Part shown: positions 6,001-22,141 of the stretch, piece by piece
Position numbering within the stretch: position 1 is the first letter of the stretch
Layout of the letters: the number at the start of each line of letters is the position of its first letter
DNA from: a virus
IMG/VR virus record: IMGVR_UViG_3300044630_005117
Span: 1-23,785 of that record
Reading direction: 5' to 3' (one strand)
Length of the DNA: 23,785 bases
The notes under the pieces: model-generated
The model's database searches: none
Told to the model about the DNA's origin: nothing
What the model saw: only the letters and a program-made list of their open reading frames with translations
Program-made: the position numbers and the translations under genes

Positions 6001-9000
6001 AAGATGCTAACGTATTAACTGTAACTCCTGGTGATATTATTGAAGATGATGATGCAACTCAGTATAGAGTTATCTCTGTCGAAGATTGTGGAGAAATTGA
6101 GGATTCGTTCTATATCTTTGACATTAATGAAATTCAAAGAAGAATACCTAATCAACAAGAAGGTGTATATTACCTAACTTGTGTTAAAGGTAATGTTTCA
6201 CCATATCCAGTTGGTGCTGGTGTTGGCACAAACTTTAGAAACTTTAAGTTCTCTCAGCCTATTTCACAATTATATCCACTTGATTATAAAAATGATCCAC
6301 TATGGTTCCAAGTAAGACCAGACGGATCTAGAGATACAACATTAACTGATGTACCAGCAACAATTTGTGCTGCTGATAACTATGTACATGGTTTGGTAAG
6401 AACTAATGACTACAAAAATAGTGAAACAAAAGAAGTTGTTCTTGATCTTGTCAATAATCCAGCATTAAATCGTTATGACTACACCAGTTTAATTGCAGCT
6501 CAATCTGGTAATGCAACTTCTGGTTCTGAAGATCGTAAGATTTCTATTGCTGGCAATTCACAATACCCAACTGAAAATAGACTATATGTAGAACTTCGTA
6601 GACCATCTATTGCTCGTTCTGGTAATCATACCTTCGAATATCTTGGTTTCGGTCCTGGTAACTACTCAACTGGTTTCCCACTTCGTCAAGAAGTAGTACT
6701 TACTGATAAGCAAGATTTTTATGCACAATCTAAGAAAGAAGATGGTGGTATTGTCTTCTACACTGGTCTAAACTCTAATGGTGATCTTTATATTGGTAAT
6801 AGAAAGATCAATGCTATTACTGGTGAAGAGACATTCCTCGAAAGAGCAGAACTAGTTTCTTCTGATGATGATGGGGGAGATCTTGGAAATCTTGTTACTA
6901 CATTTGAACTTCCTGTTGTATTTGAAAGAGACATTACTGTTGATGGTGATGCAACATTTAATAATCCAGTAACTATTAACGTTGAGCCAAATGAGCCAAA
7001 TGCATTAACAATTATATCTAATATAGATGCAAATTCTGGTGAAGATACTTCAATGGATAGTGCAACTTTTGCACTAAGCACTATTGAATCTGAAGGTAAT
7101 ATTACACTACACAAAAACAAAATCTATGCTGGTGTATATGCATTCAATCCAAGAGGTAGTGTAACAATTCCTGGTCAAAATTACAGTATTAGGACACATG
7201 CAGATCAAACTAATGGCAATTTACCTTCCAATATAACACCACATCAAACAAATGGAAGTCTTGGCAAGCAAGTACAATATGGATCAAAAAGTCCAATAGC
7301 TGGTGATATTTTATTTAAAGGAGTTGAAGTTGGTAAATCTGGCTCTCTTGGTTGGATTTTTGCTAATTTCTATACAAATAGAACAGCAAGTGTATTTACT
7401 GTAACGGCAGTTGGAAATCTATCAGTTACCTTCACAATGCAAATTGGAATTGCTCCAATTGATATTGGTATTGCACAAGGTACTGAAGTTAAATTTACTG
7501 GCTTTAATGGTAGATTTGAACCAGTAAATGGTGTAAGAACTGTTGTTTCCACTACAGCAACAACATTTACTGTCAATACACAAGTTGTTGTCTCTCAAAG
7601 TCCAGATGATCCAACTCGTTTAGATCAACAGCAAGTTAATGCGTCAATTGAAGTCGCAACTGTTCAATGGAAAGAAGTTGGTGTTCTTGGTGCAGAAGCA
7701 TTAAGAACTAATACTGATAATTATGGTGACTTTAGATTAGGTATTAATACTTTTGCAAGAGCAGATCATATTGATCGTTTACAAGGATTTGTTTCTACTG
7801 CTACTCAGCCAAGAGCAAACCTTGATATTGTCGGAACTGCTTTTGTAAGTGGTAAAACACTATCTACTTCGCCAGTTAATAACTTCATATCTAATCCAAC
7901 TGCTGCAAATAGAACATTTAATAATGTCGGAAATGCATTCTTAGTTGGTGGAGATAGTCTAAATCCAGACGCAAATTCTACTTTACGTGTTGCCACTACA
8001 AATAATGGTAGAGTTGGCATTAACACTAATTTAACAAATCTTGATAGAACATTTGTTGTTTATGGTGATGCTAGAATTACAGATGAAGTAAGGTTACAAA
8101 AAAATCTTGAGGTAAATGGTGGTAATATTACAACTACCCAAACTTCATTTAATTTAGCTGTTACCAATGCAACTTCCGCTGCTGCATTCAGTGTTGCTAG
8201 AAATATTTCTATTGGTACTTTAGTAAATAATACTCAAACAATTACTTTAGGAATTAATCCATCTGCACAGCAAGTTAATATCGGAACATTTACTCCAGAT
8301 GGAGAATTTAATGTTCATAATAATGGTACAAAATCTATTGTTAATTTAGGAACTTCAGATAATACAAGTACTGGAAGTATTAGTGTTGTCAGTGTTGGTG
8401 GTGCATTTGCTAGAAATTCAAACTCAAGAGAAAATGGTTCCGTATTTAATGTTAAAAATAGATATACTGAATTAGATGGTGATTTAAGTATTGGAACTGG
8501 ATTAGTTGTCGGTACTGGCATAGCAAGATTACAATCAAACGCTTTGCAAGTTGAGATGTTTACAGTAAACACCTCAAGATTAAACTTTGCTACTGGCGTT
8601 GGTAGATTAAGCATTGGTTCTAAAGGCGGAACTACAACAATTAATAACTCTTTAGTTGTTGAAGCAAATACAACTATGAAAGGTGATGTAACTCACCTTG
8701 GTGGATTGAATGCAGGTCAATATCAAATTAGAAGAGGATCATTCTCAACTCCAACTACTTCTCATATTAGAGGAAGTATTGATAATACTAACATTGACTT
8801 CTACTCAAGAGTAACAATTGATAGAACAATTGATACCCAAGGTGCCTCTGTATGGTCTGGTGCTGAATTTTTAGTAGATGCTGATGATCCTACAGAATAT
8901 TTCCTACCAATTGGTCAGGTAAGCACAAATGTTCAATTTGAAGTTGGTGCTTATCTATTAATTGATAGATCAGTACAAGTAGATCAACAAAATGTTATTA

Positions 9001-10379
9001 CTTCTCCAGTTGGAGAACAATATAGTGAATTATTATTGGTTACAGAATTAACTAACCTAAATAACGTTTCCGATTTGCCATTACGTGTTAAAGTAAAGAG
9101 AGCAAGAAACGTACTTGATCAAAATGGTAATATGATTATCGATGGAACTTCTCCATCTGGCTACAAATACTTGAGAAATGATCACCCAGATAATGCTAAA
9201 ATTATTAGATATAATTTATCAGAAGATGTAAGCTTTGTTGATAATGCAAATGGACTTCCAAATAGTTCTGCTGGAGCTTTGGAAAATCTCTCTACAGGAG
9301 TATTCAGTGGTACAATTAAGCAGGGTGATATCTTTAGATTAAGTGATTCTGAACTTACATTTATTAATGCTATTAATATTACATCTCCACAAAGATTTAT
9401 TATTAATGATGGAGGAAATCCTGCAGTTGATGTATTTACAGTTGATACTACTAATGGCGATACAGAAATTCTTGGTAATTTAACAGTTTACAAAGATATT
9501 CGTCTAATTGGTTCAAATACTGAAAATAACCAAAGATTAGTTATTAAGGATCAAAGTAATAATGAAAAGTTTGTTGTAGATAGTGCTACTGGAAAAACTT
9601 ATATTTTTGGTAACTTAAATGTAGGAAATTCTACAAGTTATGATCGTTTATTTGTTGATTCTTCTAATGGTAATACAACGATTAGAGGTGGTGATCTATT
9701 AATCACTGCAAATAATATTGGAAATCAAAAACTATTCTTACAAAATTCTACTGGTAATTTAACTATTAGTGGATTATTTAATTCTACTATTACCACTGGA
9801 GAAAATGTATTTAATACTGACCTCAAGATTAATGGTAATAACTTAACATTTAATAAAGTATTAAATATTGGCGGAGAAGATACTGAGGTTAATCTATTTA
9901 AAGTAAGATGGATTGAGCAAGCAACTAATAGGCCATCAGGAGGTGCGATTGATTTTGCTGGTCAACAAGGATTCTACACACAAACTGGTGCTAGAAAGTG
10001 GCAATATGTACAGGCAGGACAAGATGTAGTAGAAGTTAAATCCAATATAAATTATTTTGTATCTCCAACTGCATCTACTATTCTAAAATTACCACCAAAT
10101 CCACTTACTGGTGATGTAATTAGAGTGGTTGATGTTGGAGGAAACCTGACATATAATGTATCACTTAAATTTAGAGCACCATCTGGTGTAGCTATTCAAG
10201 GTGATACTACAAACTCTGGCGGTACTCCAGATCCAGGTACTACATATAATGGGGGAGAATTAGTAATTCAAACTCCAAATGCTGGATTAGGACTTGTGTA
10301 TATTGGTTCTGTTAATTATGATGGCACATCCACTGGAGCTCCAGCATCGCAACAAGGTTGGTGGTTGATGGAAATCTAA
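1..10379 (+). CDS. Giant virion structural protein, 5' end cut by window
   Basis: The reading frame is open from base 3 to the TAA at 10377-10379, giving 3458 visible residues. The first ATG is at 114, but the 37 codons before it have no stop and run straight into the same conserved block (RPFKTIQRAF, then MPGDHYIDNRPG), so the true start lies upstream. Visible parts in order are: helical repeats with a C-x-RDIGY-x-VDAV signature at about 447, 849 and 3030 and a degenerate one near 3860; a block with the motif GCSLVGYDLRRTIVRP near 1378; a compact beta-helix-like block at about 2085-2540; a conserved block at 6360-6840; a long repetitive beta region from 6900; short repeats at 9430-9790; and a C-terminal domain ending GWWLMEI. 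The composition is Asn/Thr/Ser/Gly-rich, with no transmembrane segments evident. I recognise it as the cyanomyovirus giant structural protein type, probably a tail fibre or baseplate-attached fibre. The exact position in the virion is inferred. Confidence 0.88.
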   Translation, partial: GNSPLRPFKTIQRAFLEVARFSYLPGKDNDRFDQFSIMLMPGDHYIDNRPGLIDLDDADRQRYFDARNLINANRNEIVDRAFAQIMIDYREDLWGTNWVVPGDDTTDEFSRYKDAYRLIQKNRQAIIDGAYAQIAISHPTFVNSNPAKCQRDIGYFVDAVSLDISLGGANKYTRKFLQNYFSGNTWKSNTLEGEEVESNTAFNKAKDLMKQAVANQLAYKDLTITPDPSYGSNTNAAVCGNVQTSIDTLGILVTSYIIQGNIDDLDTEAPESVPEAGAGMSKCKRDIGYIVDAVASDVGNGGNASIIAATKAYFNTNGTPISGGLVGEETQSVIAFNAARDMMQKAVTNQLYVKDLTLSEGPSVYSEGGAAVPNLPSGNSNTCVDVQTTIATLIAVITSSIEDGNLDALADLEISGDIPVFYFDQAKQEWNDQSVLDLSNPDNVLYKFNASTGGAIVPRGCSLVGYDLRRTIVRPLYVPDPADGTQGRTSIFNLTGGCYIWQFTIKDGDLSENSPLYDANDRVGKVYFQKGNNTQLAIPEYSHHKITIMEYAEDFELTKYYQKVGKAFSLFQPTIDDGDFEALPQENRIVGPLSDTRSIVNLRLVSESQVNGRDKTLIEATTKIPHGYFIGQYIAVIDTGLSDLLNGTFKVISVDEEDPKKFRYEVETTSIILGLDVNAEGYDATTTPALSVNCRGQAEIDSVESASPYVFNCSIRSTWGLCGMWADGAKSTGFRSMVVAQYTGVSLQKDDRAFIRYDEFSNTWNQASLTDAFATVPYHTKGDAYWKDDWRNFHIRASNDAFIQCVSVFAVGFFDHFLMESGGDMSITNSNSNFGNTSLHAVGFKGFAFNQDKGGYITDIIPVKEIDDSEFNLEQQKYYSIAIQPTKDPSNKTKLYYGTDEAYNPFQRPATSINGYRLGAKTNEKLFVKIKSTVGTTIPFETTVSPSGFKRYTVALNTLNPDGIVINNFAQDAANLIEDNKVFIQKEAYGYITAKYPELLTNTNITISKCERDIGYFVDAVVQDLRLGGNINTIQAAEGYYVGGQLAYIQSELNESLEAYDYVKNLCISAMRNFDYLIRNCTTIAGSAIVDIGDTTGIIIGMKATQYNFNTTNFTNGRLNPGATPITSAIPAGAYVKRILDSSRIELGIQGSYLNTGTTVTANISTGSAFIYFELPQTSNISDSVNNLSGKWSSVPAKKDPTVIQDATAWEVGDPDGYPECSGVATTIIGYFTNIALILSQGLTPVSKRNEDTSNLISANKELIAKEALDRILNANLGFSFDMSNSEFLDNVLSSVDALAFNVKFGSNNRVYDHAKIYVDEPSLLNGERSEANQVYILVKDLAIQVIRNQSITIQGSHGLTQVTDLNVVDEDNQGNPVIPAFQDIASIITSLSAIITGAIGTNADPGDLIGIVRTAPQFTNITRVEPVLDTANLAARATIFTVNTGTGSSNPHNFETGTPVRLVPKARQGTNPDKRVIRLPRGFETNTIYYVIAPGRKTTPEDYSNSTKYQDIFTADASTRLMLASTKENAAAGIYIYSSETDAIDPDVQIELQQYVLDDSYNLHQYICNFATGQTDVIQTDVAHIFDVPGSINTVHKVFFRTFGDPNESELPQISSGGVNAQVDPNKYYYVRYVTNKTFAVFDTAAQAIAGTPRITFTPGFGKNFYVFSDKRESPVRFDAALENDETTTGQWYVNVLDETSNPNNIIARFQELGDTLKDSRSKNTYFTRLVDKREKEDRIYRLRYVIPQYADGVRDPLNGFVLKARTDTTRKLLPQRIVLSPVSSGSPDVAYFEVQIPTESGGTIAQQLGLPKNQLDPNFVYDPYDTTSVKIVESDRTSSKVSFSIQSARKVSVSDTELLELTVFDHSITNDALKNETFVTVKIEAPQEGTFRSTEGFNTITWNGNSSGSAAVQAYFNVPETNEHYVILKAVTGSIVYNSLVDTTFYQPLLDVNNDPVLDGSNQPVQIYAKLIKKPNSVGSSNEALSKSEKGDYLYSNKDANVLTVTPGDIIEDDDATQYRVISVEDCGEIEDSFYIFDINEIQRRIPNQQEGVYYLTCVKGNVSPYPVGAGVGTNFRNFKFSQPISQLYPLDYKNDPLWFQVRPDGSRDTTLTDVPATICAADNYVHGLVRTNDYKNSETKEVVLDLVNNPALNRYDYTSLIAAQSGNATSGSEDRKISIAGNSQYPTENRLYVELRRPSIARSGNHTFEYLGFGPGNYSTGFPLRQEVVLTDKQDFYAQSKKEDGGIVFYTGLNSNGDLYIGNRKINAITGEETFLERAELVSSDDDGGDLGNLVTTFELPVVFERDITVDGDATFNNPVTINVEPNEPNALTIISNIDANSGEDTSMDSATFALSTIESEGNITLHKNKIYAGVYAFNPRGSVTIPGQNYSIRTHADQTNGNLPSNITPHQTNGSLGKQVQYGSKSPIAGDILFKGVEVGKSGSLGWIFANFYTNRTASVFTVTAVGNLSVTFTMQIGIAPIDIGIAQGTEVKFTGFNGRFEPVNGVRTVVSTTATTFTVNTQVVVSQSPDDPTRLDQQQVNASIEVATVQWKEVGVLGAEALRTNTDNYGDFRLGINTFARADHIDRLQGFVSTATQPRANLDIVGTAFVSGKTLSTSPVNNFISNPTAANRTFNNVGNAFLVGGDSLNPDANSTLRVATTNNGRVGINTNLTNLDRTFVVYGDARITDEVRLQKNLEVNGGNITTTQTSFNLAVTNATSAAAFSVARNISIGTLVNNTQTITLGINPSAQQVNIGTFTPDGEFNVHNNGTKSIVNLGTSDNTSTGSISVVSVGGAFARNSNSRENGSVFNVKNRYTELDGDLSIGTGLVVGTGIARLQSNALQVEMFTVNTSRLNFATGVGRLSIGSKGGTTTINNSLVVEANTTMKGDVTHLGGLNAGQYQIRRGSFSTPTTSHIRGSIDNTNIDFYSRVTIDRTIDTQGASVWSGAEFLVDADDPTEYFLPIGQVSTNVQFEVGAYLLIDRSVQVDQQNVITSPVGEQYSELLLVTELTNLNNVSDLPLRVKVKRARNVLDQNGNMIIDGTSPSGYKYLRNDHPDNAKIIRYNLSEDVSFVDNANGLPNSSAGALENLSTGVFSGTIKQGDIFRLSDSELTFINAINITSPQRFIINDGGNPAVDVFTVDTTNGDTEILGNLTVYKDIRLIGSNTENNQRLVIKDQSNNEKFVVDSATGKTYIFGNLNVGNSTSYDRLFVDSSNGNTTIRGGDLLITANNIGNQKLFLQNSTGNLTISGLFNSTITTGENVFNTDLKINGNNLTFNKVLNIGGEDTEVNLFKVRWIEQATNRPSGGAIDFAGQQGFYTQTGARKWQYVQAGQDVVEVKSNINYFVSPTASTILKLPPNPLTGDVIRVVDVGGNLTYNVSLKFRAPSGVAIQGDTTNSGGTPDPGTTYNGGELVIQTPNAGLGLVYIGSVNYDGTSTGAPASQQGWWLMEI
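420..4220 (+). repeat. Degenerate helical repeats in giant structural protein
   Basis: Each unit starts with a helix of the type N-L-I-x-x-N-x-x-x-I-x-x-x-A, then C-x-RDIGY-(F/I)-VDAV-x-x-D-x-x-x-GG, then a stretch with K-D-L-x-x-x-A-x-x-N-Q and a closing segment like V-Q-T-x-I-x-T-L. Clear copies have their Cys codon at 447, 849 and 3030. A fourth, lacking Cys and RDIGY, covers about 3750-4200 (SVDALAFNVKFGSNNR). A long unrelated insertion lies between copies two and three. The pattern suggests internal duplication followed by divergence. Confidence 0.75.
9420..9830 (+). repeat. Short tandem beta repeats near C-terminus of giant protein
   Basis: Four related units share the pattern F-x-V-D-x-x-x-G-(N/D/K)-T-x-I-x-G-(N/G)-L-x-(V/I). 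Their aligned Asp (or equivalent) codons fall at about 9444, 9579, 9657 and 9741, so the last three are 26-28 residues apart and the first gap is longer (45). Such short hydrophobic-Gly repeats are typical of trimeric beta-structured fibre shafts; the shaft role is inferred. Confidence 0.6.
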
Positions 10380-10380
10380 G

Positions 10381-12066
10381 ATGGCAAATTACGGATCTAT
10401 AAGAACAATGAAAGGGTTGCCCATTGGGTCTGTGCAACCCTGGGTTGGTCCTTTAACACAAATCCCGAAAGGATGGTTGCTAGCAAATGGTGCTGAATTA
10501 CAAGCAAGAGAATATCCTTTACTTGCTAGAATTTTAAAAAATACTTATGGTGGAGTAAATTTTTCTGGTGGATTTCCTAATTATAGTGGAACTTTTAGAT
10601 TACCACCAACAAATCAAAAAGGTCTTGCTGATATTAATATATCTTATTTTAGTGATAATCCTTTATTAAGAAATAATAAAATGGATACTACTGCTGCTGC
10701 TGCAGTAGTACAGCAATACATTGGTGATATTGGGGATTTAGGGACACCATCTACAGTATTTGCAAATACTGATATGAATTTTACATATGAACCAGATCCA
10801 GATGGTGTTGTTTTAACTTTTCAGTATGCTGGTGCTGCTCCTTCTACAACAATTGCACAAAAATATGATCCAGCAGAATTAACTTTATCTACAAATGGAA
10901 ATGGTTCTGGAATTACATTTCAGGTTGTCCAAAATACTAATTTAACTTATTCAGTTAAGATTATAAGTAGAGGACAAGATTTTATTCAAGGAGAAATTAT
11001 AAAAATTTTAGGTTCTTCTTTTACTAAAGGAACTACAGTTGGAACTTCGCCAGCAAATGACATTACCATAACAGTACAATCAACAGGAGATGGTTTTTTT
11101 GATGGCAGAATTGAGGGGCAATCAGTAATTCCTGGATTTGGTATTAAAACTGTATATGTTATTGGGAGAAAATTATCAAGAGAACATTTTCCTGCTCATT
11201 TTCACCCTTCACCTGAAGGTGGATATCGAACTATCAATAAAGGAGATTCTGGAGATAATCCTGGACTTGGTGTTGGTGTTTTTGATACCCCCGAAATTAG
11301 TGTTACTGGTTATTGGTGGAGAAAAGAACCATGTCCAGTAATTGCAGGAACGTGTGATAATGAAACACAAAAATTAACGGAAAGACCTAGAGTTTATGAT
11401 TTGAGGTGGGGCAGTGAAACAGGAACAATTCAAGATGGTTTAGATAATGTAGTTAGTCCAGGTGGAATGGTTCAACCTTTTGTTGCTGGAGCAGGTAGAT
11501 ATGCAATTGCTTCTGTAGAAGGATCGATACCATTTAAGTTTCATAGACCAGAAAGAACTTCTATAGATAGACATGGAGTTGGTAAATCTTGGTTTAATCA
11601 AGCAAAAAAATTAAGAGTTACTGATACAGTAACAAGTCCAGGAGAATCGTATTTAGCAAGTTTAATAAATGATAGTAAATTAATTGCTGGTATTTCTAGA
11701 ATACCTTTTTCCGATGAATCTAATGCAGTAGCGTCACCAAATTATGATAATGGAGGTGGTAGTACTTCCAATGGTCTTAGTGATGGTATTATTAGTCCAC
11801 CAACTCAAGTTTTACTTAATACTGGTGCTGTTAATTATAACGTTACTCAAAATCAAGGTGGAAATGTAGTAACAACAATTCAACCACATGATCATGGATC
11901 TGAATTTAATATTACATATAATGGCGATGCTTTATCAGTAACTCCAAGAATTTCTGCTAAAGTGCAACCAGTAGTAACTCCAGATAATGTAGAAAATGCA
12001 TTTCAGATGACATTTACAGTAACATCTCCATCACTTTCTTGTATACATTTAGTAAGAGCATATTAA
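10381..12066 (+). CDS. Phage collar-domain tail fibre protein (561 aa)
   Basis: The N-terminal part (residues about 13-75) matches the phage tail collar domain: LPIGSVQPW, then P-x-GWLLANG, E-Y-P-L-L, Y-G-G and F-R-L-P. Residues about 150-240 form a separate beta module of a kind often seen in cyanophage structural proteins (G-S-G-I-T-F-x-V, then G-x-D-F-x-x-G-E-x-I-x-I and N-D-I-T-I-T-V). Two HxH motifs follow, HFH at 273-275 and HDH at 503-505, resembling the metal-binding histidines of T4 fibre tips. The protein is likely a receptor-contacting or baseplate-associated fibre component. Its ATG lies one base after the stop of the giant gene, with no clear Shine-Dalgarno sequence, so translation is probably coupled. 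The exact T4 counterpart is not clear; it could equally be called a microcystin-dependent-protein-like collar protein. Confidence 0.85.
   Translation: MANYGSIRTMKGLPIGSVQPWVGPLTQIPKGWLLANGAELQAREYPLLARILKNTYGGVNFSGGFPNYSGTFRLPPTNQKGLADINISYFSDNPLLRNNKMDTTAAAAVVQQYIGDIGDLGTPSTVFANTDMNFTYEPDPDGVVLTFQYAGAAPSTTIAQKYDPAELTLSTNGNGSGITFQVVQNTNLTYSVKIISRGQDFIQGEIIKILGSSFTKGTTVGTSPANDITITVQSTGDGFFDGRIEGQSVIPGFGIKTVYVIGRKLSREHFPAHFHPSPEGGYRTINKGDSGDNPGLGVGVFDTPEISVTGYWWRKEPCPVIAGTCDNETQKLTERPRVYDLRWGSETGTIQDGLDNVVSPGGMVQPFVAGAGRYAIASVEGSIPFKFHRPERTSIDRHGVGKSWFNQAKKLRVTDTVTSPGESYLASLINDSKLIAGISRIPFSDESNAVASPNYDNGGGSTSNGLSDGIISPPTQVLLNTGAVNYNVTQNQGGNVVTTIQPHDHGSEFNITYNGDALSVTPRISAKVQPVVTPDNVENAFQMTFTVTSPSLSCIHLVRAY
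10686..10710 (+). repeat. Perfect 9-bp inverted repeat inside collar gene
   Basis: TACTACTGC at 10686-10694 is the exact reverse complement of GCAGTAGTA at 10702-10710, with a 7-base TGCTGCT loop. It sits in an alanine run (AAAAA). It may simply follow from the GCT/GCA codon run, and no T-tract follows, so a terminator role is unlikely. Confidence 0.4.
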
Positions 12067-12931: not shown

Positions 12932-14320
12932 ATGACAATAGTAAATTCAAGTAATTGGTCTACACGATCATTAAATATATTTAATAATTTTTACGCTTTA
13001 CCTACACAAAGTTCTTCTTTGTGGACTAGTTTTTTATTAGATAATGGTATTCAAGATCAAGGAATATATGAATTTGATATTAGATTCGAGACATTTGGAA
13101 AACAAATTTTTAATACTGCAGCTGATGATTATGCACAATTTTATATTGATGGAGAATATCTCGGGCAGTTTGGGGCATTTACCGAAAGTAAATTAATTAC
13201 TACTACTAAATTTTATGATGCATTTAGTGTACATAGAATTACTATAGTAAGATCAGATATTGGAGCAAAACCAACTGCAATTGCTGCCAGATGGTATAAT
13301 AATATATACAATTTTGTCGATATTAATGATTTTGATGCTAGTCCACAGGTTTTATATAATACAAGAACCACAGTATTAAACTGGACTGTAAATAATGCTA
13401 GAAAAATTGAAATTAATCAAAATGTTGGTAATGTTACAGGAAAATCTCAACAATTAATAGATACTGGTCTACAATCTATAGTGGGTGTGAATTCACCAGC
13501 AAGTAAAATTTATACTTTAACTGCATATGGTGATGCACCTTCAGATATACAAACTACTACTGTAGAAGTATTTGCATTTAATGATACAACTCCTAATAAT
13601 ATAGAAATTCCCAATTTTTATAATAGGGAACCTTCTGAAACAATAGTTTATAGTTTACCAGCAATATCTGGTATTGATGCTCCTATCGTAGTTTCAAGTA
13701 ATGGAAATGTTTTAGTTTCTTCTGGATTATCTTCTTCGTATACAACAAGTATTACAGTTAATAATAATGCTACGGTAAATTTGAGATTTGTATCACCAGA
13801 ATTTAGTCAAGATCCATTAACATTAGATAACACAATTGAATATTATGTTGATTTTGGAACTATTCGTAAATATTTTACCGTAACTACTAGAGCACCAAAT
13901 GATAATGAAATTTTTGATTTTGGCGATGTTTTAAACTCTGTTCCTTATCCAGTACCTCCTGGAAACAGTGAGAACCCTCCACAATACCTTGTTTCTCCAG
14001 ATACAGTAGAACCATCTGCAGATCAATGGCAAGTAGAACTGCAATATCCTAATAACATAACTTTACAATCTGGCGTTGAAGTTAAGACTACATATAATGA
14101 TAAAACTCAGGTAAGAGTAAGACCATTTGGAGGTAATTGGGGTTCGTGGGTAAATACAGAGTATTTGTATGATGAAATAATTGATCCTGGTCCAAGAATA
14201 ATTGAAAATATGAATTGGTCTACATTAGGAACTAGAAATAATGGAAATATATCTAATTCACAACCAAGATCTGTTAATACTAGATCTTCTGGTGTTTTAA
14301 CAGCAAAAAATATAGCATAA
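12932..14320 (+). CDS. Modular fibre/adhesin-like structural protein (462 aa)
   Basis: No single family is recognised with certainty. Residues about 1-130 look like a beta-sandwich with a small-ligand-binding or PA14-like flavour (YAQFYIDGEYLGQF). Residues about 135-215 look like a PKD or Ig-like unit (TTVLNWTVNNARKIEIN, then IYTLTAYG). A second unit (about 220-330) and a signature RAP-x4-EIFDFGD at 13889-13927 follow, then P-Y-P and WQVEL. The region from 13335 to about 14090 is clearly paralogous to the C-terminal half of the next gene. The ATG begins two bases after the preceding stop, preceded only by A-rich sequence. A virion fibre or decoration role is inferred from neighbours and architecture. 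Confidence 0.75.
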   Translation: MTIVNSSNWSTRSLNIFNNFYALPTQSSSLWTSFLLDNGIQDQGIYEFDIRFETFGKQIFNTAADDYAQFYIDGEYLGQFGAFTESKLITTTKFYDAFSVHRITIVRSDIGAKPTAIAARWYNNIYNFVDINDFDASPQVLYNTRTTVLNWTVNNARKIEINQNVGNVTGKSQQLIDTGLQSIVGVNSPASKIYTLTAYGDAPSDIQTTTVEVFAFNDTTPNNIEIPNFYNREPSETIVYSLPAISGIDAPIVVSSNGNVLVSSGLSSSYTTSITVNNNATVNLRFVSPEFSQDPLTLDNTIEYYVDFGTIRKYFTVTTRAPNDNEIFDFGDVLNSVPYPVPPGNSENPPQYLVSPDTVEPSADQWQVELQYPNNITLQSGVEVKTTYNDKTQVRVRPFGGNWGSWVNTEYLYDEIIDPGPRIIENMNWSTLGTRNNGNISNSQPRSVNTRSSGVLTAKNIA

Positions 14321-14325
14321 TAAAA

Positions 14326-16272
14326 ATGCCAAATAAAATTAAATTCGGAACTGCTGGTGGATTAGGATTTGAAGGTACTGATAGTGCCGAAAATTTTGAT
14401 GTCCCAGCAAATGTAATAAGAGTATCTTATATTTGTTTAGGAGCTGGTGGTGGTGGAGGTCCATCTGGAGGTGGAGATCCAAGCGGTGGTGGAGGCGGTG
14501 GTGGTGGTCTATCCAAAGGATCTTTGCAGGTAGATCCATTTGGTAATATAAGAGTTAGAGCTGGTGGTGGAGGACAAGGAAGTACATCTCTTGGCAGTGG
14601 TTCTGAGTCTGGAACTAACGGTCAAGATAGTTTTGTGAGAACTAATTATGGAGAAAGAACAGGATCAGGTGGTAAAGGAGGAGAATCATTTAATGGTGGA
14701 AATGGTGGAAATGGTAATGTAAGAGATGGTCAAAATGGAGAAAATCCAGCATTACTTGTTCCTGGAGGAATATTTGGAGGTGGTACAACTCCTTGTAGAG
14801 GTGGTGGAGCTGCTGGATTAAATTCTGTTGCAGGGAGAGGATCTATTCCTGGTGCTGGAGGAAACGGTGTTAATTTTGTTTTTAATACTTCTGGTTTTAG
14901 TACAACTGTAGTAAATTCTGTTGGTCTTGATGGAGCTAATTATGGTGGCGGTGGTGGGGGAAGTGTCGATGCTATTGAAATAGATTCTGGTGGAGGAGAT
15001 CAAGCACCTGTTGCTAATCAGATTAACGTTAGTAGACCAGGCGGTGGTGGTGGTGGTATTGCATTTGTTGGATGGGTAGTATTAACTGCACCTAAAACTA
15101 TCTTAAGATCTGGAGAACCTGTAACAGTTACATATTCAGATTCTTTTGGAAATACAGGAACGGTACAAACATCTTTTACCAACGAAACTGAAGTAAATGT
15201 GCAACAAGAATACACATATACTGATAATTTAGGAGCACAATCAAAAATTATATTTACTATTTTACCTAAAGTAAAAATTAAATCTTTGACCGCATCTCCA
15301 AATCCACAAACAAGTGGATCAGATGGTATTCCAAATTATGATACATTTTTAATATGGGAAGGTATTAGCGTTTTATCTGCTGTTGCTACCAGAAATGATT
15401 CTGCAGTATCAGCTACTTGGGAACAAAAAGAACAACCAACAGATGTAACGCAATCTCCTACATTTTGGGAATTTGGTAGTAAATCTGTAACAAATTTATA
15501 TCAATCAATTTCTACTGGATCTTCTCAACCTGGGTCGGATACAACTTATACTTTAACAGCAACTGATGGGTTCAATACAGCCACAGCAAATGTTACTGTA
15601 AAAGCATATAATGATAATTGTCCAGATACAATTTCAATACCAGATCAATTAGGAAAGGAACCTGGAGAAGAAATAAGAATAAGTACATCTCCAGTAAGAG
15701 GAATTGATATGGTTACTTCTGTCGTATGTGGTCCAGGAGTACAAGTTATTGGAAGTGGGGGAAGTGGATATACTACTTCAACAACAATAATTTCAGGTTC
15801 TTCATTAAATATTCGTGTTTATGCAGAGCCTTTTAATACAGATGAAAATGGATTGGTTAATGAAAAAACTGTTTACTTGACAGTTGGTTGTCAAACAATA
15901 TCATTTAAAGTTCAAACTAGAGCACCAATTGTGCAAGAAATTTTTGATTTTGGTGATAATCAGTTTGCGTTTCCATATCCTAAAGTAGATACTAGAGTTG
16001 TTGGAGAAGTTCTTCCAGATGGAGGAACTTATAGATCACCAACAGAGTATTTAAATTCTCCTACTATTGTTGAACCATCTTCAACAGGATGGCAAGTTGA
16101 ATTAGAAAAACCATATGGTGTACAAATAAAATCAAAAGATATAAAATATTCTCCTCCAACCACTACAGCATATACTGATATATCTTCTCAAAATGATACT
16201 AATTTAGAAGTTAATGTTCAACGCCAGGGTGATCAACCTAATAATAACTGGACTAAGCCAAATATTATATAA
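14326..16272 (+). CDS. Glycine-rich modular fibre/adhesin protein (648 aa)
   Basis: After a short start containing AENFDVP, residues about 39-245 are extremely glycine-rich (runs such as GAGGGGG and GGGGGGGG). This is like the glycine-rich domains of phage tail-fibre adhesins that pack as polyglycine helices, as in Salmonella phage S16 gp38. Residues about 322-605 repeat the PKD/Ig-like plus RAP-x4-EIFDFGD architecture of the upstream gene (signature at 15919-15957), including YTTSTTI, P-Y-P and WQVEL-x-x-P. The start follows tandem TAATAA-like sequence and an A-rich stretch without Shine-Dalgarno. Function as a tip adhesin is inferred. The glycine domain could instead be a rigid spacer. Confidence 0.78.
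   Translation: MPNKIKFGTAGGLGFEGTDSAENFDVPANVIRVSYICLGAGGGGGPSGGGDPSGGGGGGGGLSKGSLQVDPFGNIRVRAGGGGQGSTSLGSGSESGTNGQDSFVRTNYGERTGSGGKGGESFNGGNGGNGNVRDGQNGENPALLVPGGIFGGGTTPCRGGGAAGLNSVAGRGSIPGAGGNGVNFVFNTSGFSTTVVNSVGLDGANYGGGGGGSVDAIEIDSGGGDQAPVANQINVSRPGGGGGGIAFVGWVVLTAPKTILRSGEPVTVTYSDSFGNTGTVQTSFTNETEVNVQQEYTYTDNLGAQSKIIFTILPKVKIKSLTASPNPQTSGSDGIPNYDTFLIWEGISVLSAVATRNDSAVSATWEQKEQPTDVTQSPTFWEFGSKSVTNLYQSISTGSSQPGSDTTYTLTATDGFNTATANVTVKAYNDNCPDTISIPDQLGKEPGEEIRISTSPVRGIDMVTSVVCGPGVQVIGSGGSGYTTSTTIISGSSLNIRVYAEPFNTDENGLVNEKTVYLTVGCQTISFKVQTRAPIVQEIFDFGDNQFAFPYPKVDTRVVGEVLPDGGTYRSPTEYLNSPTIVEPSSTGWQVELEKPYGVQIKSKDIKYSPPTTTAYTDISSQNDTNLEVNVQRQGDQPNNNWTKPNII
14436..15063 (+). repeat. GGT/GGA-rich tract encoding polyglycine domain
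   Basis: Dense runs of GGT, GGA and GGC codons occur, densest at about 14442-14508 and 15039-15060. They are imperfect trinucleotide repeats that keep the frame, so slippage or recombination here would change glycine-run length without breaking the protein. Confidence 0.75.
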
Positions 16273-16278
16273 TAAATA
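16271..16278 (+). promoter_or_regulatory. Possible late promoter core AATAAATA
   Basis: AATAAATA fits the NATAAATA form of T4-like late promoters and overlaps the stop of the glycine-rich protein. It lies only 10 bases before the next ATG, so transcription would start almost at the start codon. In such A-rich sequence it could be chance. Confidence 0.25.
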
Positions 16279-16288
16279 AAAATAAAAA

Positions 16289-16504
16289 ATGAAACGAGAA
16301 CTACAATCAGTAACTATTAGATATTATACAAAAAATGTTGATGAACAAATTGTTCCCGACCAATCTGTAGTAGTTACATACCGATTATTGGATGATCAAA
16401 ATAATTTATTGGCAGGAGATACTATTGTAATTTATCCATCAACAAATTATTCTATATACGAAGAAAAAATTCAAAAAATTTGCCAAATTGCATTTGAAGA
16501 ATAA
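16289..16504 (+). CDS. Small protein of unknown function (71 aa)
   Basis: I do not recognise a family. The protein begins MKRELQSVTIRYYTKN, is mainly beta-strand in character (alternating hydrophobics, VVVTYRLLDD, TIVIYPS) and has an acidic end with FEE. It has no signal peptide or membrane segment. The start codon follows an A-rich leader (ATAAAAAATG). Its stop TAA shares its last base with the start codon of the next small gene, so the two are probably translationally coupled. Position between two fibre genes suggests a small virion or assembly protein, but that is only contextual. Confidence 0.65.
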   Translation: MKRELQSVTIRYYTKNVDEQIVPDQSVVVTYRLLDDQNNLLAGDTIVIYPSTNYSIYEEKIQKICQIAFEE

Positions 16505-16680
16505 TGAAATTTTCAGATAAAAGAGCGACTAATTTAAAACCAGATGACATGTTTTATTCTAGATTAATTACTGTAGATGATGTTCCTGCTGGAGAGCTAC
16601 AAGAAATTAAATCAGATAAACCAATTCAAGTAAGAGTAAATAATGGAGAATGGATCACTATTGATCCATCAGACCTATAA
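16504..16680 (+). CDS. Very small coupled protein (58 aa)
   Basis: The ATG at 16504 overlaps the previous TAA by one base, and the frame runs to TAA at 16678-16680. The product starts MKFSDKRATNLKPDDMF and ends WITIDPSDL. It looks like a folded beta-rich small protein (LITVDDVPAG, PIQVRVNNGEW) and shares the acidic, beta-strand character of its neighbour. No family is recognised. Codon use matches the surrounding AT-rich genes, and the start/stop overlap supports it being real. Its last codons lie within the late promoter of the following gene. Confidence 0.68.
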   Translation: MKFSDKRATNLKPDDMFYSRLITVDDVPAGELQEIKSDKPIQVRVNNGEWITIDPSDL

Positions 16681-16683
16681 ATA
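16676..16683 (+). promoter_or_regulatory. T4-type late promoter (TATAAATA)
   Basis: TATAAATA is an exact match to the T4 late promoter core read by the gp55-type late sigma factor. It lies 37 bases before the ATG at 16721, in the only intergenic gap of that block, giving a predicted leader of about 30 bases. It overlaps the TAA stop of the 58-residue gene. It likely gives the 1806-residue fibre gene its own late transcript. Confidence 0.75.
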
Positions 16684-16720
16684 CTATGTGAGAAAGAAAA
16701 TCTGGTTTTGTAGACATTAA

Positions 16721-19700
16721 ATGGCTAGAGTTTTAGTAGGCAAAGGGGATCAGGTTCAAATTAGATATCCCACCCCATCGACTTGGAATACAAGAACTAC
16801 AGTTCAAGTTAAAATTGGTACTGGATTAGATCCTACTGATGTAACTTTTGGCACAAGAATTCCTGATGCAAAACCAGATCAATTTAATTTTACCAATCAA
16901 AGTGGAGCATTAACTCCTGGGGGAACTCCATTAACATCATTTGAAAAAAATACTTTTTATTATTCAAATTCTATTTTAATTAGTGGTATTGAAATTTTTG
17001 TTCCTGTCAGTATTTCTGTAACTACATCTGGACCAAGAAATTTATCATCAAATACATCACAAGCAGCATTTGAAGTTAACAATAGTGGGACTTGGGTAAC
17101 AACGGCACAAGTTAAAAATGGTGATGTAATTCGTTTGAGAATTAGAACAGAAAATTGGTATACAACAACAACAAATGTCACACTTAGTGTATCTGATGAA
17201 ACTTGGGGAGGAAATTTAGGTTTAAATCCTAATACAACTGTTGATACATGGTCTATTACAACTAGACCACAAGTTCAAAATATACCACAATTTTCTTTTA
17301 TTGATTATATTGATGTTACTGCTGGTGAATTTGGTAGTTACAAAACAATAACTATTCCAGTAAGTAATATTGATAATGATGCTGTATTAAGAGCAACATC
17401 AACTGGTAATGTTCAAATATCTAGTAATAATATAAATTGGTCGCAGTCACTTACTGGATTAGTATTAGGAGACACAATTTATACGAGAATTGCTATAGGT
17501 TCATATACAACAAAAACTACTGGTATAGTTAGAGTATTTGCTGTATCTAATGAAACTTATACTAGAGGATCTAATTCTTATGATAATAATACTCCTGGAA
17601 CTTATGGAAGACCAGATTTAGGAGTATCTGAAAGATATACTATAACACAAACTTTAGGGGATGTAACAGATAATTGGCAAGTATGGACTGAAGTTGATAG
17701 ATACCCAGATTCAATTTCATTGAGTCCAATTTATGCTATTTCTGATGGCGAAAAAGTATATGTTTCTAGTAAAAATTCATATAGTAGGGCAGAAGTTACA
17801 GAATTTGATCAGGAATTTTGGTATTATGCTGATTTTAATATTACTGGACTTGGAGTAGAATATCCAACTGGAACTTATTTTGATTTAGAAGAACCTTTTA
17901 GTTTCACATCAACTGGTAGACCATCATTACCAATAGATACATCATCTGTAAATGGAAGAAATGTTGAAATTAGATGTAGAATTGCACAAGGTAATGGGTC
18001 AATTAGAAAAAATGATACTGGCGAATGGGTACAATCATTATTTGTAAAAAATGGTGATAAAGTAACTGTACGTCAGTTATCTAGTGAATTATATAATCAA
18101 CAATTAACAACAAAAATTATTTTGGATGGTCCTCCTGATGGTGGTCCTATTCCATATGCCAATCCAACAAATGGACCAAGTGCTGCAAATAGATCATTTG
18201 CTAATTTAGAAGACACTATAACAATTAAAACTAGATTAGCAAGAGATACACCATATCCATTTAAAGGAACTAATATATACAGAGCAGATCCTGGAGAATC
18301 TTTATTAATTGGTATTCCTCTTGGTGGCTATGATATACCAGTTGATGCTACTATTGTATCTCAATCTGCTAATGCTGCTGCACAAATTAGTTATGATGGT
18401 TTAAATTATTCTTCTTCAACATTAAGTGATATTCCTGTAACATCTACATTATTAAGTTTAAGATTTTCTTCTTCTACAAGTTATGGTGGAGTATCTTTCG
18501 TAACCTACAGTATAGGAAATTATACAGATACAATTTATGCATATACCGTAAAAAGAAATTGGAATTATTCAACTTATATTGGCAATGATAGTAGAACAAG
18601 TCCAATAGAATATAATTTACCAGACTATGCAGAAAATTTTGATTTTGTTTTAGTTGGTGCTGGGGGAGGAAATGGTGGAGATGATGCTCCAAATAGTTAT
18701 GGTGGTAGAGGAGGTTTTGGTAACTTATTAAGAGGAAAAATTACTCTTCCACCAGAATTTTTTATAGGCAATGATTATCGAATTAAATTGTATCCAGCTG
18801 GAAGAGGAATAAACGGAGTAAACTTTAGTACAAATGCTCCTGGAGGAGCTGGTGGATGGGGATATGCAACTGGAGGAAGTGGAGGAGATTCGGGATTAGG
18901 AGATAGTTCGGGATCTGGTGGAGGTGGCGGAGGTGCTTCTGCTATAGCGTTTTTTAATGGCACATTAATTGCCCTTGCTGGTGGTGGAGCAGGAGGTGGA
19001 GGTGCTGGTAATGATACAGAAATACAAAAAGAAAATCAAAATGGTAATTATAATGGATTTGGTTCTCTTCAAAATACATTAAATGGATTAAATTTATCTG
19101 GAATTGATGGACAAAATAATTCTGCACAAGGTGGAGGTGCTGGTGGTTCTGGAGGAGGATTTGGATCTGCTGGTATAGTTCCATCAAACAAATTAGATGA
19201 ATTTAATGTTATCATACAAACTAATGATTTAGATGCCACAGGAGGTACTGGTGGGGGAGCATACTATGATTCAAATATAGTTGCATTAGAAACAACAAAC
19301 AATTTTTCAAATTTTGGATCTGGAGCAGAAACTCAAGGAACAATTATAATCGGAATTCCTCCACAAGATAGGACACCAAATCCATTTGCATTTACCTCTG
19401 TTTTACTTGCATCTACTAATACAACATATGAATCAGAAAAAGTACAAATTACTGGTATAACTGGAAGAGTTTTAGTTTCTACTTTTGAAAATCAATCAAA
19501 AATAAGAGTATGTGATTCCAATCAACAAAATTGTAGTGCATATACATCTACTCCTCAATTTGTAAGAAATAATGAGTGGATTCAAGTTCAGATGACAACA
19601 GGATTAGATTATTATACTCAATATCCAATTAGAGTTGTAGTTGGAGATACTGAAGTATATTGGATTGTTGAAACTGGAGAACCACCAGATACTATTCCTA

Positions 19701-22141
19701 ATCCATTTGAAATACCAGATAAATTATTTCCTGGAGTAGAACCAGACACACTAATAGAAAGTGACGAAGTTGAAATTAGTGGAATTAATACTTTAGTAAA
19801 TATTACAGCATCGGGTGGAGCAGAAATATCTATTTGTTCTTCTCCTGGAGTATGTGATGCATTTTTGCCAAGTCCAAGACAAATTGGCAATAATCAATTA
19901 TTTAAAGTTAGATTAAGATCTTCTACTCAGTATCTAACTACTGTTGGAACTACAGTAAGAGTTGGAGATTCTAATCCAGAATCATTTGACATAAGAACTA
20001 TCAAAGAGCCAGATAGAGATCCAAATTCATTTATATTTTTTGAAATTAATAAACAGCCATTACAAACAGTAGTTAAATCTAAAAACTCTGTTGTTATACA
20101 AGGAATTGATTCTCCTATACTATTTCGAGTTACCAGAGACGATGGATTATCGCCAAATGCTACTATTATTTTAAATGGAGTAAATACTAATCAATCATCA
20201 GTTCAAGTTGAATTATTTGATGTGGTAAGGTTACAGTATTTGACATCAAATATTCCAGGACAAAGAGTTGAATTTACAATTGAAGCTGGAGATTTTGAAA
20301 CATCTTGGGCAGTAACTAATGATGGATCTTTTGGTACAAATCCAGCACCATTTGTATTCACTCCAGTTTATGCAAATTCATTACAATATGGAGTATCTAA
20401 CGAAACTATAACAATATCTGGATTAGGTGTACCATCGGTATCTTTATATGGTACTAATGGAGCACAATTTTCTATAAATGGTGGTTCATTTACTGAATAT
20501 ACAGTATCTTCACCAGGATCCATTTCAAATGGACAAACATTTAGAGTAAGAATGTTGGCCAGTGCTATTGGAGGTTTTGATGTAGTTTCTTCTGTTACAG
20601 CTGGTTCTTATAGTACTTCATTTACAGTATATGCAAATGCAAATGTACAAGATCCTATTTTAGGACAATGGTATAGTAGTATTCAAACTATAAAACCAAG
20701 AAGTAGTGGAGAGCAAGTTAGATTTTCTACTAAATTTGAAGGATTGCCAATTGGAACAATTATGCCAGTATTCCAAGATGGTACAGAAAATGATAATTGG
20801 GGCAATTTAGATGGAAAAGCAGATTCTAGATTCCATGGTTGGATTTGGTGTAATGGTGATTTTATTAGCAATGAAAATTTTCCACTATTATTTGAAATTA
20901 TTGGAAAATCATATGGAGCTACTTCTGCAGACACTACTTTGTTTAGGTTACCAGATTTTAGAAATAGAAAAGTATTAGGAACTGGTCCTATTGATGGAAA
21001 TTCTGCATCTTCGCCAATTGTAAATCCTTTATATGGTCCTGGAAAAATTGGATTAAATGCTAGTGGAAATATTCCAGGTTCTCAAGGTGGTATGTGGTTT
21101 GTTGATACAATTGCCGATCCTGGGATTGACACCACTGGTAATAATAATGAATTGGAACAGGTAGAGACACCAGCAACTGGTCAGCCAGCACAATCAAGTG
21201 AATATTTTGCCATTGCTAGTATTAGAACAACTGGTTACGAGCAAATCACTGGAAGTATTGAATTTAGTACAGCAGGATCAATTAATGGAAGTGTTTCTTT
21301 AAGCAATACTAGAATATTTGAAGTTCCTAGACATATACATGAAATGGTAAGTGGCCAACCCGATCCAATTAGAAATAAAGGTTATGTTCAATGGGGTGGA
21401 AGAGGTGGTTTCCAGGGACAATTGCAAGTGACTAATGTCGCTGGACAGGTTGGACCACTATATCCAACAGATACATTTAGATTTAATGTTTGGGGATATT
21501 GTACTGACGATTACCAAATTGATGCAGGTAGTGATGATGTTCCTCCATTAAGTATTAGTGCCGAGCAAGGAAGTAATTTACCAAGATTTTTGAAAAATGT
21601 CGAAGAATGGGGGTCTGGTTCTGGTTATATTGGATTGAGAGAAGCTGATAGTGATCCGTATTGGAATTTTATAGAGGTAAAGCAACCAAATATTAGATCA
21701 GGTAGTCCTAATTTTACAGAAGTTAATAGTTATATTAATTTAAATACTTGGTCTGGAGGTTCTGCATCAAAATCTGGTGGATTATATAGATTCATTGGTG
21801 CATTAGATATACCAGAAAGATCTGTTACTGTTCAATCATTTACGCCAGAAAGAAAATCCCATTCACATTATATTAGCTTATCAAATCCAGGAGATCAAAA
21901 TAATACATTTAGCTGGGGTAAAGATAATGGTCCAGGTGCAATAACTCCTGGAAGTCAATTTGCTACAAATGTTATTAGTGTTTCTTTCGATGCTTTAGAA
22001 GTTGGAATGGAAGTTCTTCCTGGAACTTTTACATTGGCATCAACAAAACAATTAGTACCAGTGCCAGAATTTGCTCCACAAACTGAAGTACCACTAATAT
22101 CTCCATATATTTGGGTAAAATGGTTAATAAAAGCATTCTAA
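16721..22141 (+). CDS. Large repeat-built tail fibre protein with glycine-rich and collar domains (1806 aa)
   Basis: Residues about 50-620 contain roughly four divergent beta-sandwich-like units, marked by strands such as W-V-x-x-x-x-V-K-N-G-D-x-(I/V) and closing strands like TWSITTR. Residues about 640-870 are glycine-rich, entered through YAENFDFVLVGAGGG, much like the entry to the glycine domain of the gene at 14326. Four tandem units of 107-108 residues follow from about 887 to 1315. Residues about 1341-1410 are a collar domain: LPIGTIMP, then GWIWCNG, F-P-L-L, Y-G-A and F-R-L-P-D-F. HxH motifs occur at 1538-1540 and 1714-1716, and the C-terminus is SPYIWVKWLIKAF. It is probably a major host-binding fibre; receptor and position are not visible. 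A late promoter lies just upstream. Confidence 0.85.
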   Translation: MARVLVGKGDQVQIRYPTPSTWNTRTTVQVKIGTGLDPTDVTFGTRIPDAKPDQFNFTNQSGALTPGGTPLTSFEKNTFYYSNSILISGIEIFVPVSISVTTSGPRNLSSNTSQAAFEVNNSGTWVTTAQVKNGDVIRLRIRTENWYTTTTNVTLSVSDETWGGNLGLNPNTTVDTWSITTRPQVQNIPQFSFIDYIDVTAGEFGSYKTITIPVSNIDNDAVLRATSTGNVQISSNNINWSQSLTGLVLGDTIYTRIAIGSYTTKTTGIVRVFAVSNETYTRGSNSYDNNTPGTYGRPDLGVSERYTITQTLGDVTDNWQVWTEVDRYPDSISLSPIYAISDGEKVYVSSKNSYSRAEVTEFDQEFWYYADFNITGLGVEYPTGTYFDLEEPFSFTSTGRPSLPIDTSSVNGRNVEIRCRIAQGNGSIRKNDTGEWVQSLFVKNGDKVTVRQLSSELYNQQLTTKIILDGPPDGGPIPYANPTNGPSAANRSFANLEDTITIKTRLARDTPYPFKGTNIYRADPGESLLIGIPLGGYDIPVDATIVSQSANAAAQISYDGLNYSSSTLSDIPVTSTLLSLRFSSSTSYGGVSFVTYSIGNYTDTIYAYTVKRNWNYSTYIGNDSRTSPIEYNLPDYAENFDFVLVGAGGGNGGDDAPNSYGGRGGFGNLLRGKITLPPEFFIGNDYRIKLYPAGRGINGVNFSTNAPGGAGGWGYATGGSGGDSGLGDSSGSGGGGGGASAIAFFNGTLIALAGGGAGGGGAGNDTEIQKENQNGNYNGFGSLQNTLNGLNLSGIDGQNNSAQGGGAGGSGGGFGSAGIVPSNKLDEFNVIIQTNDLDATGGTGGGAYYDSNIVALETTNNFSNFGSGAETQGTIIIGIPPQDRTPNPFAFTSVLLASTNTTYESEKVQITGITGRVLVSTFENQSKIRVCDSNQQNCSAYTSTPQFVRNNEWIQVQMTTGLDYYTQYPIRVVVGDTEVYWIVETGEPPDTIPNPFEIPDKLFPGVEPDTLIESDEVEISGINTLVNITASGGAEISICSSPGVCDAFLPSPRQIGNNQLFKVRLRSSTQYLTTVGTTVRVGDSNPESFDIRTIKEPDRDPNSFIFFEINKQPLQTVVKSKNSVVIQGIDSPILFRVTRDDGLSPNATIILNGVNTNQSSVQVELFDVVRLQYLTSNIPGQRVEFTIEAGDFETSWAVTNDGSFGTNPAPFVFTPVYANSLQYGVSNETITISGLGVPSVSLYGTNGAQFSINGGSFTEYTVSSPGSISNGQTFRVRMLASAIGGFDVVSSVTAGSYSTSFTVYANANVQDPILGQWYSSIQTIKPRSSGEQVRFSTKFEGLPIGTIMPVFQDGTENDNWGNLDGKADSRFHGWIWCNGDFISNENFPLLFEIIGKSYGATSADTTLFRLPDFRNRKVLGTGPIDGNSASSPIVNPLYGPGKIGLNASGNIPGSQGGMWFVDTIADPGIDTTGNNNELEQVETPATGQPAQSSEYFAIASIRTTGYEQITGSIEFSTAGSINGSVSLSNTRIFEVPRHIHEMVSGQPDPIRNKGYVQWGGRGGFQGQLQVTNVAGQVGPLYPTDTFRFNVWGYCTDDYQIDAGSDDVPPLSISAEQGSNLPRFLKNVEEWGSGSGYIGLREADSDPYWNFIEVKQPNIRSGSPNFTEVNSYINLNTWSGGSASKSGGLYRFIGALDIPERSVTVQSFTPERKSHSHYISLSNPGDQNNTFSWGKDNGPGAITPGSQFATNVISVSFDALEVGMEVLPGTFTLASTKQLVPVPEFAPQTEVPLISPYIWVKWLIKAF
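18654..19350 (+). repeat. Second glycine-rich tract, inside large fibre gene
   Basis: GGT/GGA-dense sequence encodes runs such as GAGGG, GSGGGGGG and GGGAGGGGAG, interrupted by Asn/Asp/Ser-rich spacers and ending at ETQGTIIIG. It resembles the glycine-rich domain at 14436-15063 in entry motif and composition. Confidence 0.72.
19370..20660 (+). repeat. Four tandem ~107-residue Ig-like repeats
   Basis: Unit starts are marked by N-P-F-A-F (19379), N-P-F-E-I (19700), N-S-F-I-F (20024) and A-P-F-V-F (20345), a spacing of 107, 108 and 107 codons. Each unit then has a strand like V-x-I-x-G-(I/L), a middle turn, an (I/F)-x-V-(R/Q)-(L/M) strand and a closing strand before the next linker. Units one and two carry Cys pairs spaced CX6C and CX5C at the same place. 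An Ig-like or other beta-sandwich fold is inferred. Confidence 0.75.

Follow-up and report, generated by a model that had tools for sequence, protein, structure and literature searches.

How marine cyanomyoviruses attach to their hosts is poorly known. A 2010 review counts g12, g34 and g37 among the tail genes absent from these phages and expects unknown structural proteins in the attachment role (PMC2984593). The locus described here raises the question of why a long tail-fibre protein built from repeated domains begins with only half of one. The window (the whole stretch of DNA analysed) is an IMG/VR contig of 23,785 bases whose ORFs match tail-fibre genes of Kyanoviridae; by its sequence, the virus is assigned to the Kyanoviridae-type cyanophages, the kind that infects marine cyanobacteria. 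The protein in question, P0001 (1806 aa), is encoded by the ORF at 16721..22141 (positions written with two dots lie on the + strand).

The gp12-like protein, its repeat units and its neighbours

P0001 matches PHROG 4924 (E=2.3e-100, best stretch residues 929-1806), and its C-terminal region contains a Pfam Collar domain (PF07484; residues 1372-1416, 20834..20968) scoring 35.5 bits against a cut-off of 24. From these comparisons P0001 is classified as a gp12 (short-tail-fibre)-like protein. The Collar domain above the Pfam cut-off, the PHROG 4924 match and the position in a tail-fibre gene cluster are shared with T4-type gp12, from which P0001 differs in its long Ig-like arrays, a glycine-rich insert and a half-domain at the N-terminus. 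The best named relative, at 53.5% across the full length, is that of Synechococcus phage Sf-FR1; a search of PDB sequences gave only a weak match, to the solved T4 gp12 (1ocy, E=0.017).

The sequence-only reading had placed four tandem, diverged repeats at 19370-20660 (P0001 residues 884-1314), spaced by 107, 108 and 107 codons. The spacing is borne out by the unit-opening motifs NPF, NPF, NSF and APF, whose phenylalanines lie at residues 889, 996, 1104 and 1211. The divergence is equally real: a plain BLASTP self-comparison of P0001 detects no repeat at E<=1, so that profiles were needed. In the self-comparison named beforehand as the check, a six-ortholog profile aligned with itself over the array is periodic, the top three single offsets being 215, 107 and 322, and none of 1000 column permutations reached the observed periodicity statistic. 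Unit 5 (residues 884-990, 19370..19690), unit 6 (991-1097, 19691..20011) and unit 7 (1098-1205, 20012..20335) were delimited by self-profile, hhalign and AlphaFold2, and unit 8 (1206-1312, 20336..20656) by AlphaFold2. Comparison of the unit profiles by hhalign (six orthologs each) gave 98.3% for U5-U6, 98.6% for U6-U8, 93.4% for U5-U7, 92.7% for U7-U8, 76.9% for U5-U8 and only 47.5% for U6-U7; no array unit exceeded 20% against four C-terminal control segments. A further hhalign match, U3a-U3b, was discarded as an artefact of overlapping segments.

Structure prediction, in which differing folds would have spoken against a repeat, returned the same strand pattern four times: a single AlphaFold2 model of the array region (29 sequences, mean pLDDT 87.6) contains four beta-sandwiches. 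The array is thus predicted to consist of four homologous Ig-like beta-sandwiches. Its length is 428-473 residues in all 30 aligned family members. No named Ig family of Pfam or NCBIfam matches the repeat region at E<=0.1. Foldseek with the array model gave 336 matches at E<=0.001, and among solved structures, tandem beta-sandwich arrays, Ig-like or otherwise, match best. The best VIA-align Z was 9.0 (7som_D, rmsd 12.8, 358 aligned), in a search where absence of a family from the matches does not exclude that family. Central-pair proteins, titin, protocadherins and the RTX adhesin 6xi1 resemble the array in fold and tandem arrangement only; the solved arrays share about 10% identity with it and show a large rmsd over its whole length.

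About four more units had been suggested for the first ~620 residues. An AlphaFold2 model of residues 1-640 (26 sequences) shows strand-rich domains across residues 51-611, with 44 of the 56 ten-residue blocks at pLDDT >=90, and an iterated unit HMM also finds matches there. This HMM was trained on the loci compared, which include P0001-P0003 or their relatives. Because matched proteins or their relatives had taken part in the training, the search was repeated with a leave-out model, for which Sf-CH1b served as seed and the iterations drew solely on Sf-CH1b-like, S-PM2-like and L045 proteins. Unit 1 (residues 51-187, 16871..17281) is found by HMM, AlphaFold2 and the leave-out model (E=2.8e-13), as is unit 3 (about 330-505, 17708..18235; HMM core 406-466, leave-out E=8e-6), which carries an insertion and whose limits were set by eye from AlphaFold2 strands. 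The diverged unit 2 (190-324, 17288..17692) combines AlphaFold2 strands with a weak HMM match from a model that had seen relatives (E=8e-5), and unit 4 (510-611, 18248..18553) is found by HMM and AlphaFold2; the leave-out model gives these two units 6.2 and 6.9 bits, scores that decoys also reach (607 decoys, best 8.7). The suggestion thus stands on HMM matches and AlphaFold2, with units 2 and 4 indistinguishable from decoys when relatives are left out. From the HMM and AlphaFold2 evidence, P0001 would have about eight units plus one half. A six-ortholog self-profile found no 107-residue period in the N-terminal part; the units there are of greater length and irregular spacing and hence do not continue the period. 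The insertion between the two groups of units, previously read as polyglycine, does lie in that place and resembles a Gly_rich_2 domain (residues 628-869, 18602..19327), at 22.2 bits just below the Pfam cut-off of 24.3.

The idea that one domain family is spread through the cluster also holds, the leave-out model finding units in two proteins encoded upstream, P0002 (E=2e-10) and P0003 (E=1e-7). P0002 (12932..14320) contains one unit at residues 219-324; P0003 (14326..16272) combines a Gly-rich head, recognised by Pfam, with one unit at residues 433-535. Six of eight P0002 family members have weak PA14 matches (best E=0.0054), P0002 itself not being among the matches listed, and the family has no solved relative in the PDB (best E=0.6). 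Further upstream, family searches identify two Collar proteins, at 10381 and 12039, and a tail assembly chaperone lies elsewhere in the window; the window starts with a giant protein. The order giant fibre, Collar, Collar, heads, gp12 is annotated in most named cyanophages compared, where the stretch reaches; the annotation of S-MbCM7 has no heads and so falls outside it, and one further record compared is unannotated. Any ORF of 250 aa or more sited between the second Collar gene and gp12 was counted as a head. The 13 named loci (L008-L017, L019-L021) have 37 heads in total, from one to five each and with differing N-termini; in L011 and L013 the Collar gene is absent from the stretch, so that the five heads of L011 are a minimum. 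L022, L023 and L044, which share their contigs with L002, L003 and L005, were left out of the counts.

Several irregularities were seen among the heads. The close relatives L002, L003 and L024, which share 75-83% identity with the window in the gp12 repeats (residues 880-1345), have a third head gene (523-547 aa) that is absent from the window at 16272-16289; since the window lacks this gene, head content differs among phages with similar gp12 repeats. The highest GC skew of any 1-kb step in the window (0.40, at 14001-15000) falls over the glycine-rich head of P0003. In Sf-FR1 (L006:7961-9869), two adjacent coding sequences of 304 and 333 aa, heads 2 and 3 of that locus, resemble one P0003-type head broken by a frameshift. 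L015 (ACG-2014e; L015:3472-8841), L090 and L091 have long heads with an internal N-terminal half of the unit (residues about 1180-1228 in L015) and, after it, another head-like sequence, as though the stop between two heads had been lost. In ACG-2014e Syn7803C85 (L091:6995-10569), the annotation splits gp12 into two coding sequences in succession (6995-9490 and 9493-10569), unlike in the sister isolate L015, where it is one.

Halves of a unit at protein termini

P0001 starts directly after an in-frame TAA (16718-16720), and its residues 4-49 (16730..16867) correspond to the C-terminal half of the unit (HMM 61-107). This half is recognised by hhalign (95.3% against the unit with six window-like gp12s) and by the leave-out model (E=5.5e-7, residues 5-34). 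AlphaFold2 predicts two strands only in residues 1-50, at pLDDT 68-74. When gp12 N-termini were aligned by hhalign to 240 non-redundant units, they fell at 55-108, 55-107 and 61-107 (97.1, 96.7 and 95.3%, respectively). An HMM of the C-terminal half made from the L029-like lineage matches the gp12s of 12 of the 13 named loci at 1e-3 and of all 13 at 1e-2, its only other matches being the gp12s of the window and Sf-FR1. The half is conserved, with a dN of 0.018-0.037 against a dS of 0.23-0.55.

The complementary half lies upstream. In the 13 named loci, the gp12s start with the C-terminal half of the unit and the 37 heads end in its N-terminal half. An HMM of the latter trained only on L029-like phages places it within 14 aa of the C-terminus in 20 of the 37 heads and within 25 aa in 30; after one round of iteration all 37 are found. 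None of 218 further ORFs with a length of 150 aa or more has the N-terminal half at its C-terminus, and some carry it within full units. Against the 240 non-redundant units, hhalign places L029-like head ends at 4-52 (94.0%) and S-PM2-like ones at 1-50 (66.9%), while none of 80 control termini (single sequences, from 40 of 135 ORFs) exceeded 30%. In heads of the window type, direct comparison detects no N-terminal half (hhalign, 0.7% for 16 such heads together, 0.2% for the P0003 type and 1.3% for the P0002 type). An indirect link exists for the P0003 type, whose C-terminal profile matches L029-like head C-termini at 89.7%; the C-terminus of P0003 is possibly a diverged N-terminal half.

Another carrier of the N-terminal half is a 58-aa mini-gene (16504..16680) located between the heads and gp12, which would make a stand-alone half-unit (HMM about 6-53). 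A profile of 21 mini-proteins matches the unit at 91.7% by hhalign and the N-half HMM at E=8e-9; it also matches two kinds of head C-terminus, at 96.8% (S-PM2-like) and 96.9%. The mini-gene is present in all 21 loci whose stretch covers the upstream DNA, five more starting too near gp12, and in Sf-FR1 it corresponds to SfFR1_27, annotated as hypothetical. Its dN/dS is 0-0.08 in the window clade and up to 0.46 elsewhere, below 0.5 in every pair computed, pointing to purifying selection in the window clade. On a common unit HMM that had seen many of the sequences counted, gp12 N-termini start at 55-62 in 28 of 28 cases, mini-proteins end at 52-61 in 20 of 20 and heads end at 47-61 in 59 of 76 (identical termini counted once). 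The 17 heads outside this range are 16 window-like heads, including both heads of the window, and one head of L014. An incomplete Ig-like domain is thus accompanied by its missing strands at the terminus of another protein, in the window for gp12 and the mini-protein and not for the heads. Since the ends of P0002 and P0003 lack a match to the unit, the partner of the half-unit in the window's gp12 is most likely the mini-protein, as far as profile comparison can tell. The 71-aa ORF preceding the mini-gene (16289-16504) was rejected as a partner: its profile, used as a control, gave 0.1-0.3%, with 0.2% or below against the unit and both head C-terminal profiles. ORFs of 69-95 aa occupy the same place in many related loci; the one in the window matches neither units nor PHROGs.

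Separate genes and a second cut site

The two halves are encoded apart. In the 13 named loci, the last head and gp12 are separated by 32-43 nt in all three frame relations, and an in-frame stop lies 0-10 codons upstream of the gp12 start. A T4-type late promoter sequence, TATAAATA, occurs between the mini-gene and gp12 (16676..16683) in the window and in five window-like relatives, and each of the 22 loci examined has the TAAATA core of such promoters 29-43 nt ahead of gp12, as a raw count. The motif has been described for T4 and S-PM2 (PMC2984593). A frameshift fusion of heads and gp12 was judged unlikely in view of gaps, frame relations, upstream stops and promoter core. The last head and the collar gene of L007 overlap by one base.

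In Sf-CH1b and its IMG/VR relatives, the cut lies elsewhere. The heads end at HMM 89-90, just past strand F, and the strand that follows is the first of the Collar protein. Residue 2 of the latter aligns to P0001 residue 1296, where the AlphaFold2 model predicts a turn linking strands F (1287-1294) and G (1297-1305). The last strand of P0001 unit 8 (about 1297-1305) corresponds to the N-terminus of the Sf-CH1b-type collar; in P0001, where unit 8 and collar are in one chain, the pieces split in Sf-CH1b are thus naturally fused. The match of the single collar strand to the unit is weak (hhalign, 21.5%); on the HMM, its six distinct sequences all fall at 92-106 with E values of 0.04-0.2, one of the six at E<0.05. 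All 20 distinct Sf-CH1b-type heads end at HMM 89-90, partly by construction since heads were picked by their last residues; in an unselected table the same end was found for eight heads of L007, L078, L083 and L085, heads cut by a contig end stopping elsewhere. These numbers come from 30 heads and 9 collars, recounted as 20 and 6 distinct sequences, some loci being from the same contigs. Other lineages have no cut. In L045, head, four units and collar form one protein and there are no separate heads; S-MbCM7, S-H9-1 and S-RSM4 have no head between the second Collar gene and gp12, and the half-unit was not found in them. Taken with Sf-CH1b, these phages indicate that the cut moves or vanishes on both sides together.

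A proposed joint between heads and stalk

We consider it probable that a beta-sandwich completed across two polypeptides, in a donor-strand-like manner, couples the heads to a common gp12 stalk. Ig-like beta-sandwiches would serve as spacers in the gp12-type tail fibre, and the same domain family would also make the joint. The gp12 N-terminus would offer the second half of one sandwich only, from about position 55 of 108, and the first half would be supplied by the C-termini of the upstream virion heads, of the 58-aa mini-protein, or of both. Folding together, the two halves would complete the sandwich; their binding to each other would attach the head or heads to gp12. In the Sf-CH1b lineage the joint would have moved, with strand G coming from the collar N-terminus and the array through strand F from the heads. 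The heads may then be alternative or mixed adhesins. A more tentative extension, which we hold possible without favouring it, is that several heads share or compete for the identical half-sandwich sockets of one gp12 stalk, resulting in mixed display, that heads are gained, lost and swapped as cassettes, and that the mini-protein is a head-less plug capping or anchoring the socket.

Heads encoded in one genome are on average 69% identical over their last 45 aa and 14% over their first 200 aa (39 pairs, 12 genomes); between genomes, the last 45 residues are 50% identical (591 pairs, 12 genomes). Similar ends on heads with differing N-termini are as expected of alternative parts fitting one socket, and gene conversion could do the same. 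That within-genome head ends are far more alike than the rest of the head, together with the variable number of heads in the named loci and the lack in the window of the third head of its relatives, also suits a reading in which module exchange within repeat units has left the shared head ends and the half-unit start of gp12 as scars, a landing pad for recombination with no physical joint. We regard this as unlikely: it leaves unexplained a stand-alone mini-gene kept under purifying selection, two different cut sites that are each complementary on both sides, and the low dN of the gp12 half. It is also conceivable that the halves pair homotypically, heads swapping strands with heads and gp12 with gp12 inside their own oligomers, in place of a pairing between the two. 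As a rule tail fibres are trimeric, with identical termini side by side. Each half, however, lacks the positions carried by the other, the cut shifts jointly on both sides in the Sf-CH1b lineage, and the mini-protein adjoins gp12 in the window clade, making such pairing rather improbable.

The remaining explanations appear more remote still. Ig-like arrays are common in phage fibres, so that P0001 might have an ordinary tandem array and nothing else, the half-units being decaying leftovers; the recognition of both halves across genera and the constraint on every mini-gene pair leave this very little room. Finally, frameshifting or read-through might join heads and gp12 in a single chain, the unit being whole after translation. 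The one-base overlap in L007 would fit; the gaps in every frame relation, the stops ahead of gp12 and the promoter core do not, and where as many as five heads have the same end, only one can adjoin gp12. We give this reading hardly any credence.

The proposed joint between heads and gp12 has partial parallels. In donor-strand complementation of chaperone-usher pili, an Ig-like domain without its last strand obtains it from the N-terminus of a second subunit. Sf-CH1b is alike in having the last strand encoded at the N-terminus of another protein; the S-PM2-like and window-like lineages differ in that about half a domain, not one strand, would be exchanged. The present structure is a phage fibre, not a pilus, and membership in the pilin family is not claimed. 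Split CnaB2 pairs such as SpyTag/SpyCatcher are engineered Ig-like domains in two pieces that reassemble and couple proteins; the phage domain is alike in its two-piece cut, which would couple two proteins, and is natural. Among phage families, PHROG 2155 (T4-GC 737-739) is matched by the three S-PM2 heads at E 1e-161 or better, and by the window mini-protein over only the last 40 or so positions (1150-1183 of 1193, E=2.2e-4). Its genes are mostly annotated "virion structural protein" or "hypothetical protein", with no docking role in the records compared. No description of a split Ig-like joint in phage fibres was found in open-access text, which omits most subscription papers. In a phage-host coexistence experiment, the structural genes that acquired selected mutations early on include S-PM2d224 (PMC9910659); by its locus tag, this gene is the gp12 of S-PM2d.

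If true, the split-domain socket would provide an assembly logic for clusters T4-GC 737-740 and would explain why one C-terminal tail is common to several different "virion structural" proteins. Host-range switching through exchange of heads would become directly testable, and the phages would offer split Ig-like coupling pairs of natural origin.
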